From the NCBI GenBank assembly GCA_002238505.1, contig MPMM01000007.1, forward strand, positions 1 to 64,000: a stretch of 64,000 bases of DNA. Direction: 5' to 3'. Below are positions 3,108 through 51,445 of this stretch, piece after piece. Source of the DNA: SAR202 cluster bacterium bin22 (GTDB taxonomy: Bacteria; Chloroflexota; Dehalococcoidia; Lucifugimonadales; UBA3495). A model generated the notes under the pieces. That model made no database searches, was not told the origin of the DNA, and was given only the letters and a program-made list of their open reading frames with translations. Each line of letters opens with the position of its first letter. Positions within the stretch are counted from its first letter, which is position 1. The position numbers were made by a program, and so were the translations under genes.

Positions 3108-3241
3108 CAGGGTCTTTCGATTGTCGGTGGCAACTCCTCGAGTCCGTTCGTGGTGAGCTTGGAGAACCACTCCGGGCGGCCCTTCGACAGGCTCAGGGCG
3201 AACGGTGGAAGAGACTCTACCAAAATAATAGAAAGACCCTG
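3108..3241. mobile_element. MITE-A copy 1, with 10-bp target duplication
   Basis: A 134-bp element bounded by inverted repeats CAGGGTCTTTCGATTGT and, on the other strand, CAGGGTCTTTCTATTAT. It is flanked by a perfect direct repeat GGCGGGGCAT (3098-3107 and 3242-3251). It carries no ORF that looks real. The inside holds a second inverted pair, CCGTTCG.GGTGAGC against GCTCAGGGCGAACGG. Sister copies are at 27056-27189 and 34953-35087. The right target duplication ends on the first base of the stop codon of the minus-strand gene at 3251. Confidence 0.8.
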
Positions 3242-3250
3242 GGCGGGGCA

Positions 3251-8432: not shown

Positions 8433-9857
8433 ATGTTTGACCTGATAATCCGCAATGGCCAGGTGGTTACGCCCTGGGGAGTGGGAGACTGGGACGTGGC
8501 GATACAGGGCGAGAAGATCGTAGCCGTAGCCGCCAACCATACCCTGACGGAAGAGACAACCCGGGTTATTGACGCTGCGGGCAAGGTGGTAGTCCCCGGT
8601 GGCATTGAGCCCCACGCCCACGTTTACGCGCCAATTATGGGCCAGGGCGACCTGAAAACGGCGCCCCCGGACCAGGTCAGCCGGGCCGCCCTGTTTGGCG
8701 GCACCACAACCATCCTGGACTTTGCCATCCAGTACCCGGGCATTGACATCAACCAGGCCATCCAGGAACGGACCAATGTCTGGCAGGGCAATTCCTACGC
8801 CGACTACGCCCACCACCTGATGCTGCTGGGCGACATTTCCGACAACGTCCTGGGGCAGTTGAACGAACACATCCAGGACGGCTTTTCCAGCGTCAAGATT
8901 TTCACCACCAACATTCGGCCGCCCAGCATGTCCGGTGAGCCGCGCATGGTGCGCATGGGCCACCTCCACGACCTGATGGAACAGGTGCAGCGGCACGGGG
9001 CCATGCTGATGGTCCACGCCGAAGACGACGATATGGTCCAGCACATGTACCGCAAGTTGACGGAGCAGGAACAGACCGAGTGGTGGAATATGCACCTGGT
9101 CCACAGCAACGAGTCGGAGGATGTTTCCTTCCGGCGGGTGCTGCGGGTGGCGGAATGGACGGGTTCGCCGATCTATTTCGTTCACGTCAGCGCGCGGGAA
9201 GGACTGACAGCCGTCCAGGAAGCCCGGGCCAATGGCCGGCCCGTCTATGGCGAAACCCTGCACAACTACTGCTGCTTCAATGCCGAGGACTACAAGGAAG
9301 AGAACGGCATGAAGTACCACACCTACCCCTCCCTCAAGTCCGAGGAAGACCGAAAGTCCCTGTGGCGCGGCATCATCCAGGGCGGATTGAGCACCATGGC
9401 CACCGACGAGTACTGCACCTCCTGGGACGTCAAGATTTCCGGAAAGCTGGTAACGGACGTGACCGGCGGCCACAACGGCGCGGAAACACGAATGGGCGTC
9501 ACCTTCAGCGAGGGCGTGTCGCGGCAGGGTATGTCCCTGCAGCGTTTTGTTGACGTCACCTCGGCCAACGCCGCCAAGATAATGGGTCTCTACCCCCGTA
9601 AGGGTGTTATTGCCCCGGGCAGCGACGCCGATATTGTCCTGATCGACCCCACCATCCAGCGGCCCCTGACCATGGACGACTTCCACATTTCCGACTACAG
9701 CATCTGGGAAGGGTTCGAGGCAGCAGGCTGGCCGGTGATGACCATCCTGCGTGGCATGGTAGCGGTGGAAGATGGAAGACTGCGTACCGGCAATGGCAGT
9801 GGCAAATTCGTCCGGCGCAAGGTGGATCCGGAAGTGACCAACCGCCCGGCCGCCTAG
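8433..9857 (+). CDS. Hydantoinase / dihydropyrimidinase family amidohydrolase
   Basis: A 474-residue cyclic amidohydrolase, predicted to open hydantoin or dihydropyrimidine rings in the cytoplasm with a binuclear metal centre. I chose the ATG at 8433 because AGGAGGGG lies just upstream and the protein then begins FDLIIRNGQVV, as in the family. Metal ligands are visible: His61 and His63 in PHAHV, the probably carboxylated Lys155 in SSVKIFTTN, His195 in MVHAED, His251 in FVHVS and Asp325 in ATDEYC. The first motif reads EPHAHV where dihydropyrimidinases usually have DPHTHL, so the natural substrate is uncertain and allantoinase-like activity is possible. The MFS gene upstream may supply substrate. 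Confidence 0.85.
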   Translation: MFDLIIRNGQVVTPWGVGDWDVAIQGEKIVAVAANHTLTEETTRVIDAAGKVVVPGGIEPHAHVYAPIMGQGDLKTAPPDQVSRAALFGGTTTILDFAIQYPGIDINQAIQERTNVWQGNSYADYAHHLMLLGDISDNVLGQLNEHIQDGFSSVKIFTTNIRPPSMSGEPRMVRMGHLHDLMEQVQRHGAMLMVHAEDDDMVQHMYRKLTEQEQTEWWNMHLVHSNESEDVSFRRVLRVAEWTGSPIYFVHVSAREGLTAVQEARANGRPVYGETLHNYCCFNAEDYKEENGMKYHTYPSLKSEEDRKSLWRGIIQGGLSTMATDEYCTSWDVKISGKLVTDVTGGHNGAETRMGVTFSEGVSRQGMSLQRFVDVTSANAAKIMGLYPRKGVIAPGSDADIVLIDPTIQRPLTMDDFHISDYSIWEGFEAAGWPVMTILRGMVAVEDGRLRTGNGSGKFVRRKVDPEVTNRPAA

Positions 9858-10035
9858 CAGGCCAACAAGTTTGAAATGATGACTGCTAAATCTGTATCGT
9901 CCTTCCGGCTCAAGGCCGGAATCCGGACAGGTTGCGAATGGTCAACTGCAGGGCACTAGAGGGGCTCTGGATTCCGGCTTTCGACGGAAAGACGGTTAAG
10001 CCCCAACCCATCATTACGATGCTTTTGAACTACTA
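9858..10035. repeat. Repeat R, uninterrupted copy
   Basis: 178 bp starting directly after the hydantoinase TAG. It matches 40383-40685 along its length once the 130-bp MITE-B there is removed: shared CAGGCCAACA, GGCTCAAGGCCGGAATCC, GGGGCTCTGGATTCCGGCTT and CATTACGATGC or ATTACGATGC stretches in the same order. It contains two self-complementary segments around CCGGAATCC and GGATTCCGG. This copy shows the empty MITE-B site. Confidence 0.75.
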
Positions 10036-10110
10036 AACCAAAGCCACGGTGAAAACAACATCGAGGGTACCTGGCATTGGAGTGGTAGTAGTCCAGTTTT
10101 TCTCTGAACC

Positions 10111-10138
10111 GTAGGGGCGCACGGCCGTGCGCCCCTAC
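10111..10138. repeat. Perfect 28-bp palindrome P, copy 1
   Basis: A perfect palindrome whose half is GTAGGGGCGCACGG. Identical copies are at 37789-37816 and 40272-40299, all outside genes. It could form a cruciform or bind a dimeric protein; the function is unknown. Confidence 0.85.
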
Positions 10139-10264
10139 TTGGGCACCATATCAAGTTCGCCTTAAGCATCATACCCTCATAGATGGCATACCATAGTCGA
10201 TAGAAGGGTAATGCACATCCCACCCTGGCTTTGGTTTAGTACCCCTGCTGTTCGGGCAAAAGAT

Positions 10265-27005: not shown

Positions 27006-27353
27006 ACTGTCCCTTATATGTAGGCTCAGGCAGGTGGGCTGGTTGCGGCAAAATCCAGGGTCTTTCGATTGTCGGTTGCACCTCCTCGAGTCCGTTCGTC
27101 GTGAGCATGGAGAACCGATCCGGGCGGCCCTTCGACAGGCTCAGGGCGAACGGTGGAAGAGACTCTACCAAAATAATCGAAAGACCCTGGGCGGAGTCTC
27201 CCCGGTTGAAAAGAGGCCATAGCATCATTACAGTGTAGCCAACCCACGGGAATTGCCCTGGGGTAAGGTTCCGGGAACCGGTGGGAGAATGAATCGGGAA
27301 TACAACACTTTGCCTGGCGGGGCAGCATTTGTTTCCTTTGCCGGAGGTATGCC
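27006..27353. other. Intergenic region holding a MITE-A copy
   Basis: About 350 bp between the CcmH-like gene and lhgO. It contains MITE-A copy 2 and, close to 27344, the GGAGGT ribosome site of lhgO. No gene is seen. Confidence 0.6.
27056..27189. mobile_element. MITE-A copy 2
   Basis: 134 bp, the same length and ends as the copy at 3108 (CAGGGTCTTTCGATTG and CAATAATCGAAAGACCCTG-like termini), with differences inside. No target duplication is visible: left flank CGGCAAAATC, right flank GGCGGAGTCT. It is therefore older, or one side has been rearranged. Confidence 0.75.
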
Positions 27354-34599: not shown

Positions 34600-35187
34600 G
34601 GCTGGCCGTCGGCTGTAGGGTTTCAGGGGCCGCTTTTTTGCGCAGCACGCGCGCGGATAGTCCCCCGTACAGATGGGTAAGGTTCTATCAGTAGAGACTT
34701 CCTGCTCAAGGACGTCCTCCAGTTTGCGCCAGGACATGCGAATTGGAAGGCCGTCTGCATTTAATCCCACCAGTCGCCCTGCCTCTTTTCGACTGTTCTC
34801 CCGACTTGTCTCCTCATAAGCTTCGCCAATAGGGAATGTGGGGCACCGGAGATACATACACCATTCTCCCTGTCCCGTTCCTCATCGTGTCGCCGGCGTT
34901 CGAGTTCAGGATGTGAATCCAGCCTGTTAGTCGTATTCTCAAGCTGTGCGGCCAGGGTCTTTCGATAGTCGGTGGCAACTCCTCGGGTCCGTTCGCGGTG
35001 AGCTTGGAGAACCATTCCGGGCGGCCCTTCGACGGGCTCAGGGCGAACGGTGGAAGAGACCCCATTAAGATAATCGAAAGACTCTGGCTGTGCGGCACGG
35101 TCTCGTTTATGCCTGCCCGGTTTTCGTCTATACTTGCTGGAACGTGTTAAATCCCCGGGCCAGGCGATGGCCAGCAAGGAGCGACCC
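34600..35187. other. Intergenic region with MITE-A copy 3 and a possible gene remnant
   Basis: About 590 bp. On the minus strand a frame from ATG 34857 has a normal-looking stretch (GEAYEETSRENSRKEAGRLV, then SWRKLEDVLEQEV), but it then runs into the antisense of fabG. Just upstream in another frame is LDSHPELERRRHDEERDREN. These may be pieces of a decayed gene near the MITE. No homologue was recognised, so I do not call a CDS. Confidence 0.35.
34953..35087. mobile_element. MITE-A copy 3, with 10-bp target duplication
   Basis: 135 bp with ends CAGGGTCTTTCGATAGT and ATCGAAAGACTCTG, flanked by a perfect direct repeat GCTGTGCGGC (34943-34952 and 35088-35097). It shares the interior of the copies at 3108 and 27056. 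Confidence 0.8.
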
Positions 35188-37699: not shown

Positions 37700-37788
37700 G
37701 GGGGGTTCTGAACAGGGCATGCTGGGTTTGGGGTCGGGAGAAGAATAGCAGGCACCCAAATTTGCCCATGCGGGGTCTGAAATTTGTA

Positions 37789-37816
37789 GTAGGGGCGCAC
37801 GGCCGTGCGCCCCTAC
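37789..37816. repeat. Perfect 28-bp palindrome P, copy 2
   Basis: Identical to the palindromes at 10111 and 40272 (half-site GTAGGGGCGCACGG). It lies between the convergent isochorismatase and LLM genes. Confidence 0.85.
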
Positions 37817-40122: not shown

Positions 40123-40271
40123 GGGCTGTTTCGCGGACCGGGAGGCGGGCTGACAGTTGCGACTGGAGGCGACTCCTGGAAGGGAGTCACCCTTATCCTG
40201 GTCTTCCCCCGTCAAATGGGGAAGGACTCTGGGGGAGTTGATAAAGGACGATGACGTTCAAGCCCGACACC

Positions 40272-40299
40272 GTAGGGGCGCACGGCCGTGCGCCCCTAC
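40272..40299. repeat. Perfect 28-bp palindrome P, copy 3
   Basis: Third identical copy of the 28-bp palindrome at 10111 and 37789, 150 bp downstream of the SDR gene. Confidence 0.85.
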
Positions 40300-40382
40300 A
40301 TCTGGTTCGCTCAGGACTATTGCCAGTTTGGGCGACGTTGACTGCTAAGTCCGTATCTTCGGGGTACAAAGGCTGGCCCTAT

Positions 40383-40685
40383 CAGGCCAACAGGTTTGAA
40401 ATTATGAGTGCTAAGAAACTATCTCAAGATTATTCAAGGCAGAGCATTGGGCAAAATGCGACAGCAAAAGAGATTGCTTTTCACCCCCATCCTAACCTTC
40501 CCCCGTCAAGGGGGAAGGGATTCTTGAGATAGTCTCTAAGTTCGTGTCGTCATTCCGGCTCAAGGCCGGAATCCAGACGGGTTGCGAAAGGCCAACCGCA
40601 TGGTACAAGAGGGGCTCTGGATTCCGGCTTTCGCCGGAAAGACGGTTAAACCCCAACCCATAATTACGATGCTGTTGAATTACTA
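40383..40685. repeat. Repeat R copy interrupted by MITE-B
   Basis: Corresponds to 9858-10035 with a 130-bp MITE-B inserted after GAGTGCTAA. The copy ends exactly on the stop codon (CTA on the plus strand, 40683-40685) of the minus-strand Zn-ribbon gene. Confidence 0.75.
40411..40540. mobile_element. MITE-B copy 1
   Basis: A 130-bp element with terminal inverted repeats CTAAGAAACTATCTCAAGA and CTTAGAGACTATCTCAAGA (17 of 19 identical). Inner sequence includes CAGAGCATTGGGCAAAAT and a CCTTCCCCC / GGGGGAAGG hairpin. TA dinucleotides at both ends suit a TA target duplication, as with IS630/mariner-type elements. The sister copy is at 51293-51445. Confidence 0.8.
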
Positions 40686-48498: not shown

Positions 48499-49893
48499 GT
48501 GACCGGGAACCGCGACCAGGACATGAAGCGCTCCGGACGGAGCCTTTTCGCAAACATGGTGATTCTTGCCGCAGGCATGGCGGCTCTGGCCTGTGCCGGG
48601 CCGCCCTCGTCCGCCACTCCATGGCCGGAAAAACACACAACCGTCGCCGCCCCGGAGGAAAAGGGGCTGTCCACTCTCCCAGCGCCGACGGGTACCAGCG
48701 CCCCCGACACCGGGGACACCGTGACGGCCCAGGTGCGGGCTGAAACTACCAGGTACCCCACGCCGTCGGCCGCGAATACGCCCGAAGTCGGGGCAACCGT
48801 GCTACCGGACATTCCGGCAACTGCCGCTGCCCAGGAGGAAAAGAAGCCGGCCACACTCCCGGCTCCGACTGGTACCGGCGCCCCGGACACCGGGAACAAC
48901 GTGACGGCCAAGGCGCGGGCTGAAACGACCAGAAATCCCATGCCGCCGGCCGCGAATACCCCGGAAATCGAGCCAACCGTGACGCCGGACATTCCGGCAA
49001 CCGCCACCGCCCGGGAGGAAAAGGAGCTGACCACTCGCCCAGCGCCGACGGCCACTATCATCCCCGTCCGACCTGAACTGTACCTGCTGGCCGATACACC
49101 GGAACACATGGCATACGTCTCCTGGCTGTGGGAAAGCGTCACCGGCGGCGAGGGTCAGGAGTTCACCGGATTCAAGGAACTGGCAACAGAGTTCACCATC
49201 CACAACAATGTATCCCTCCGGGGTGACAACGGCCTGTACCTGATGCTGGCCGACGGCTCTATCAACGGCCAGGGCTACTATTTCGGCCTGCAGACTGAAG
49301 TCCACGCCCCCGAACCTCCATTCCGGCGGGGAAAGGGTCTCATCTTTTCGCGCTGGGGCACCCGTGACCTGGCCAACGCCCGCTACTCCGACGAGGACGG
49401 CTGGACAGAGTCGTCTGGCCACGAGGGGGACTTCATAGGGATTCGCCGGTCATACGAATGGGGAGCCGGAGACTACCGCGTGACGCTGGCGCCCGACGGG
49501 GAACCCGATGAGGACGGCGTATGGATGAGTCTGCGGATCACCGACCTCCAGACTGACGTCACGACCTGGGTCGGCTCCCTGGAATTTCCCGCCGACGACG
49601 GTCATGCAACTATTAGCCCGCATTCCTACTCAACCATTGAGATATACGGCAGCAAGATCATACCGGTTGAAATCCCCCAGTGGCACGTCAGCATCAACAG
49701 GCCCGAGGGAGACGGCATAAGAGCGACTAGCGGTCGGACGGGATACTCTCCCTTCTACGGGCAGATCACCAACAACGAGGCAAACTACAACGACGAGACT
49801 CAGCAAATCCATCTCAGGGTCGGGGGAGACATCTCCAGGGATACCAGGGGGGAAACGATCTCATTTGAAGACCCAGAGGGCGGTTCAGGGTAG
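48499..49893 (+). CDS. Predicted lipoprotein with 60-residue tandem repeats
   Basis: A secreted protein of 456-464 residues. The start is GTG 48499 or ATG 48523; the latter gives MKRSGRSLFANMVILAAGMA with a lipobox-like ALAC. Residues about 50-190 are a low-complexity Pro/Thr/Ala linker made of a 60-residue repeat (180 bp at DNA level): EEKGLSTLPAPTGTSAPDTG, EEKKPATLPAPTGTGAPDTG, then a partial EEKELTTRPAPT. The C-terminal part, from ELYLLADTPEHMAYVSWLWE onward with LRGDNGLYLMLADGSINGQG and YYFGLQTEV, looks like a beta-sandwich resembling DUF3472. It is probably a surface protein with a stalk. Confidence 0.72.
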   Translation: MTGNRDQDMKRSGRSLFANMVILAAGMAALACAGPPSSATPWPEKHTTVAAPEEKGLSTLPAPTGTSAPDTGDTVTAQVRAETTRYPTPSAANTPEVGATVLPDIPATAAAQEEKKPATLPAPTGTGAPDTGNNVTAKARAETTRNPMPPAANTPEIEPTVTPDIPATATAREEKELTTRPAPTATIIPVRPELYLLADTPEHMAYVSWLWESVTGGEGQEFTGFKELATEFTIHNNVSLRGDNGLYLMLADGSINGQGYYFGLQTEVHAPEPPFRRGKGLIFSRWGTRDLANARYSDEDGWTESSGHEGDFIGIRRSYEWGAGDYRVTLAPDGEPDEDGVWMSLRITDLQTDVTTWVGSLEFPADDGHATISPHSYSTIEIYGSKIIPVEIPQWHVSINRPEGDGIRATSGRTGYSPFYGQITNNEANYNDETQQIHLRVGGDISRDTRGETISFEDPEGGSG

Positions 49894-51292: not shown

Positions 51293-51445
51293 CTAAGAAA
51301 CTATCTCAAGATTATTCAAGGCAGAGCATTGGGCAAAATGTGACAGCGAGAGAGACTGCTTTTCACCCCCATTCCTTCGGCAGGCTCAGGCCAGGCTCTA
51401 ACCTTCCCCCGTCAAGGGGGAAGGGATTTTGAGATAGTCCCTAAG
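51293..51445. mobile_element. MITE-B copy 2, overlapping the SMP-30 stop codon
   Basis: 153 bp, ends CTAAGAAACTATCTCAAGA and CTTAGGGACTATCTCAAAA. The interior matches the copy at 40411 except for about 24 extra bases containing TTCGGCAGGCTCAGG after CACCCCCAT. Its right end supplies the TAG (51443-51441 on the minus strand) that ends the SMP-30 gene. Confidence 0.8.

Follow-up and report, generated by a model that had tools for sequence, protein, structure and literature searches.

Structure of the locus

The window analysed here is the first 64 kb (64,000 nucleotides) of contig C10, which belongs to a 4.39-Mb genome assembled into 58 contigs. It carries two copies of a repeat, referred to below as Repeat R, one of which is interrupted by a short element with inverted ends, MITE-B. 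The features are as follows.

9854–10035, + strand: Repeat R, empty copy
9887–9889: the one TAA of the empty copy, at the point of insertion
10036–10236, + strand: a third element, a TA-flanked IS630-type MITE of 201 bp that directly adjoins the end of the empty R copy
40379–40685, + strand: Repeat R, filled copy (R sequence 40379–40414 plus 40537–40685)
40412–40414: TAA target duplication, left copy
40415–40536, + strand: MITE-B, 122-bp copy (121-bp class), one of 28 two-ended copies in its own genome
40415–40429, + strand: MITE-B left terminal inverted repeat, GAAACTATCTCAAGA; the same ends occur on insertion sequences of relatives
40492–40522: G+C-rich hairpin module, CCTTCCCCCGTCAAGGGGGAAGG plus tail, also dispersed alone in the genus
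40522–40536, − strand: MITE-B right terminal inverted repeat, GAGACTATCTCAAGA as read on the − strand
40537–40539: TAA target duplication, right copy
51297–51441, + strand: second MITE-B of the window, 145-bp class, with TAA at 51294–51296 and 51442–51444

Both R copies and the interrupting element are present where the first-pass annotation had placed them, with the starts of the R copies corrected to about 9854 and 40379. The element, described there as about 130 bp long with 19-bp inverted ends, measures 122 bp, and its true terminal inverted repeats are 15 bp long and identical at 14 of 15 positions; the longer version takes in the palindromic target CTWAG. An RNA identity of the element was rejected, its two weak miRNA matches in Rfam lying far below gathering scores and being taken as chance hairpin matches.

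Other repeats were also seen in the window. The G+C-rich palindromes CCTTCCCCCGTCAAGGGGGAAGG and GTAGGGGCGCACGGCCGTGCGCCCCTAC occur at 40492–40522, 51398–51428, 10108–10138, 37786–37816 and 40269–40299; they turn up within MITEs that are not related to one another and also stand alone at many sites across the genome or genus, as though each were a mobile module in its own right. A 180-bp tandem repeat (75–79% identical) lies in apparent coding sequence at 48624–49066, and a 139-bp direct repeat is present in three copies (3108–3246, 27056–27194 and 34953–35091) that are 89–95% identical.

Empty and filled sites in Repeat R

Excision of MITE-B together with one TAA from the filled copy yields the R consensus without an internal gap. 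When this copy was scored against the consensus, removal of 3 or 4 bp with the element gave 145, removal of 2 bp 144 and removal of none 140. A second R copy, on contig C19, carries a 145-bp MITE-B (C19:13378–13522) at exactly this position; here removal of 3 bp is the single best solution (142 versus 139 and 138), and the right-hand TAA now reads AAT. Thirty R loci were aligned, the best-scoring of 74 BLAST pieces (the other 44 being mostly short fragments): the site is uninterrupted in 27, interrupted in two (C10:40415 and C19:13378) and unreached in one (L057). These data support the earlier proposal that a MITE has been caught within an older repeat, and the empty site, which is genuine, fixes the borders of the element.

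Two other histories of the site were weighed. In one, which the first-pass annotation had itself raised, the inserted sequence (130 bp in its measure) is usually present in R and the copy at 9858 is a deletion derivative. No point was found in its favour, and it is refuted by the 27 of 30 aligned R loci that lack the 122 bp; moreover, MITE-B resides at many other places with duplications of its own, and the deletion would also need to have removed one TAA exactly. We regard its probability as negligible. In the other, a single insertion into R was followed by copying of the R–MITE-B composite, which would account for both insertions lying at the same R base. However, the two elements belong to different length classes (122 versus 145 bp), though both could derive from a 185-bp ancestor by separate shortening, and the filled copies are 86.0% identical to each other, compared with 87.8% and 87.2% to the empty copy. 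Since the length classes differ and the filled copies are no closer mutually than to the empty one, we consider composite copying unlikely and favour two independent insertions, the R site in the window and that in C19 having likely been hit separately.

Repeat R may itself be an older MITE, with CTAG as its target. It has 11-bp inverted ends (YAGKYCAACAG) in a CTAG context, two hairpins that face each other, and a mean pairwise identity of 80.7%. A 4-bp duplication was found in the flanks of four of 22 loci (P = 0.065), or in seven of 22 if read as a 2-bp duplication; these counts cover 22 of the 27 R loci tried, and another analysis of R covered 23 of the 27. No autonomous partner for Repeat R was revealed when its ends were searched for in 50 family genomes, nor was one found beside 17 DDE_Tnp_1 and seven DDE_3 places. 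In the two R copies of the window, the loop of the first hairpin (9903–9924 and 40553–40574) reads CTCAAGG, the exact reverse complement of the CCTTGAG present in most of the others, as if the hairpin had flipped, and C19 has a similar loop. At another locus (L046, C4:64925–65454) three R copies are arranged in tandem, head to tail, joined via a few shared bases where CTAG would be expected.

The MITE-B family

MITE-B has the traits of a MITE: a length of 120–185 bp, 15-bp ends, no transposase and 28 two-ended copies. The copies come from 30 loci fetched out of 64 BLAST pieces, many of the others being hairpin modules alone; two of the 30 (L022 and L025) were dropped as having no end pair. Nine copies fall into the 121-bp class, three into the 185-bp class and 16 into the 145-bp class, the last including L029, which is paired at 143 bp but has a longer, split BLAST match and is of uncertain class. 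The end pattern, with up to two mismatches allowed, has 57 matches in the genome versus one for the reversed control; because of this difference, and because 28 two-ended copies can be aligned, the ends are not a product of chance.

Mean pairwise identity is 93.0% within the 121-bp class, 91.9% within the 145-bp class and 89.5% within the 185-bp class; the values of the two large classes, set against 80.7% for Repeat R, bear out the claim that R is the older repeat. The 185-bp form contains two hairpin modules, and the alignment of the length classes is as would be expected from deletions between internal direct repeats. In the four other genomes of the genus, only the hairpin part (about positions 55–122) is covered among the matches listed.

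Five of the 30 MITE-B loci lie in Repeat R or within 30 bp of it (P = 0.0003, calculated with our own estimates of 45 R copies, each 240 bp long with its margin, and an intergenic share of 12%), two of the five belonging to one cluster in C19. At C53:89683, MITE-B is positioned exactly between an R end and an IS630-type MITE, so that three families are nested at one spot.

Target site and duplication

The first-pass annotation had suggested a short duplication of TA, or CTAA. Neither is supported by the 28 copies: exact flank duplications are of 3 bp in 14, of 2 bp in two and of 1 bp in one, and none is of 4–7 bp or longer. TA lies within TWA, so single copies cannot distinguish 2 from 3 bp, and only the whole set can. 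The 3-bp duplications are TAA in eight copies, TTA in five and CAA in one, and their number exceeds the 7.9 expected from random re-pairing of the flanks (P = 0.0038). The other 14 copies lack an exact 3-bp duplication, some through single changes and some through more. Of the 15 copies with TWA on both sides, 13 have the same middle base in the two flanks (P = 0.011).

Outside the duplication, 36 of 56 MITE-B flanks have C at –4 and 28 have A at –5. Because C and then A follow outside the duplication, the target of MITE-B is approximately ACTWAGT, a palindrome of which the 3-bp TWA is duplicated. A similar preference is seen at ends beside IS5-type transposases in other records, 14 of 16 having C at –4 and eight having A at –5 (16 ends from 13 of 118 loci, among the matches listed, with TWA fixed by the search pattern). 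By our own estimate about 60 chance matches of the end pattern were to be expected, and thus only these 16 places beside a transposase were used. The target of PIF is CWCTTAGWG; our literature search found no paper containing this string.

A probable IS5-type partner element

Twenty of the 50 family genomes contain the end pattern of MITE-B. In relatives, one of them in the same genus, insertion sequences of about 0.9 kb have ends matching those of MITE-B. The fetched loci contain 17 pairs of ends separated by 0.6–1.4 kb; an exact 3-bp duplication flanks 11 of them and is absent from the other six, of which two (L215 and L235) are poor pairs. In both elements that were typed, ORF1 matches PF13340 (DUF4096) and ORF2 PF01609 (DDE_Tnp_1). 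Against NF033580 (IS5 family), with a cut-off of 110 bits, the two ORF2 products score 132 and 127 bits, while the ORF1 products score 94.8 and 100 bits, below the cut-off, and cover the N-terminal part of the model. The two ORFs are in a –1 relation and overlap, the overlap containing a T4G6-7 run, and a –1 frameshift probably joins them into one transposase.

A related transposase (E-value at most 1e-20) is encoded in 10 of the 50 genomes, including one of the same genus (G002). The G002 element has 91% protein identity and both ends, with zero and two mismatches; its flanks are TAG and TAT, with no exact duplication. In MITE-B's own genome we found neither a full insertion sequence with MITE-B ends nor such a transposase, the best transposase match there being 28% identical. 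The sole match of the insertion sequence is a 53-bp stump of its right end (C57:55762–55814), which has 91% identity to the final 52 bases and lies in the interior of the contig; as there is no other match, nothing points to a collapsed copy at the ends of contigs. The same search did not match the MITE-B copies, whose interior has no counterpart in the insertion sequence even though the ends are identical. A search of this genome for a long element with MITE-B ends found none, the unpaired ends in C19 and C16 belonging to diverged short elements. From these searches the helper appears to be gone or unassembled, a MAG of 97% completeness being unable to prove loss. Another genome, G001, has 34 MITE-B-type ends, and the transposase search of the 50 genomes found no helper in it.

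Family assignment

We conclude that MITE-B is very probably a type II MITE that has nothing but its ends in common with an IS5-family insertion sequence and is predicted to be mobilised by it in trans. As the interior does not match the insertion sequence, the link rests on the ends, the target and the duplication. A 3-bp duplication of the TNA type is a subgroup feature of the IS1031 group of IS5, and it is found in 14 of 28 MITE-B copies as well as in 11 of the 17 pairs of ends from relatives.

The first-pass annotation had assigned the element to the IS630/mariner-type MITEs, with TA duplication. IS630 elements follow a TA duplication rule, and TA is contained in both TAA and TTA; the genome also has seven DDE_3 matches, of IS630 type, and a real IS630-type MITE at 10036–10236. 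However, the third base is duplicated as well, and both full insertion sequences with MITE-B ends that were typed are of IS5 type, carrying DUF4096 and DDE_Tnp_1 (NF033580) rather than DDE_3. The check proposed at the time, for an IS630-family transposase with matching ends, revealed no MITE-B-like ends near any of the seven DDE_3 matches of the genome. An IS630-type origin of MITE-B is thus very improbable, and we retain the IS5 assignment. The MITE at 10036–10236 is separate from MITE-B: it has the ends AACCAAAGCC, similar to those of a DDE_3 element at C37 (L296), and full-length relatives elsewhere in the genome.

Discussion

We propose that an IS5-type transposase encoded by two overlapping ORFs would bind the ends of MITE-B, excise the element, acting in trans, and insert it, through cuts staggered by three bases, at the TWA of an ACTWAGT-like site. 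One site of this kind would be the CTAA(G) of the old Repeat R, hit at least twice. The 145- and 121-bp forms probably arose from the 185-bp form with two hairpins, through deletions bounded by internal direct repeats, and may then have spread too. The helper would later have been lost from its own genome, leaving the 53-bp stump.

The analysis provides exact borders, a target rule and a likely helper for a MITE family in an uncultured Dehalococcoidia lineage, in a genome that keeps many passengers while the helper seems gone or unassembled. Elements of this kind are already known, type II MITEs being defined by their ends alone (PMC10969869), and IS5 subgroups have been described (PMC12730594, PMC3196728). 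As far as our literature searches show, MITE-B, its target rule and the nested record are undescribed; no paper was found that joins Dehalococcoidia, miniature inverted-repeat and insertion sequence.

The closest known system is offered by IS5-family insertion sequences of the NF033580 (IS5_3) type, with ends GAAACTATCTCAAAA, a length of about 0.9 kb, DUF4096 and DDE_Tnp_1 in overlapping ORFs, and a TWA duplication, whereas MITE-B is non-coding and has only the ends in common with them. The IS630-type MITE of the window is, like MITE-B, small and dispersed with inverted ends, but differs in its TA duplication, its ends and its DDE_3 relative. BrickBuilt of Porphyromonas gingivalis is presented in PMC4596501 as an IS5-type MITE with an internal minisatellite. 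By that account it resembles MITE-B in IS5-type ends beginning GAGAC/GAAAC, an unshared interior and an internal repeat module; its module is a 23-nt minisatellite and its duplications vary in length, while in MITE-B the module is a hairpin and the duplication is uniformly TWA.

For PIF/Harbinger elements a TWA duplication is given in PMC4482050, along with a preference of NuwaII for C|TNA|G and an ANT duplication for bacterial IS5. PIF/Harbinger and Nuwa are thus like the elements studied here in duplicating TWA and in having transposases of the same PHIS/IS5 relationship, while ANT does not fit our elements. They differ, according to the same source, in being eukaryotic and in having a second, Myb-like ORF; the insertion sequence partner has no such ORF, its two ORFs being halves of one transposase. 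TWA duplication in a palindromic target works here as in PIF/Harbinger, with no membership claimed. The ACTWAGT rule, also seen beside IS5 transposases in other phyla, ties bacterial IS5_3 to targeting of the PIF/Harbinger type. A bolder and doubtful idea, which we offer tentatively, is that the IS5-type transposase reads palindromic ACTWAGT as PIF/Harbinger transposases read their target and that insertions land preferentially in old MITEs belonging to other families; if true, this would represent a bacterial counterpart of the nested MITE clusters of plants, with a shared, ancient target rule.
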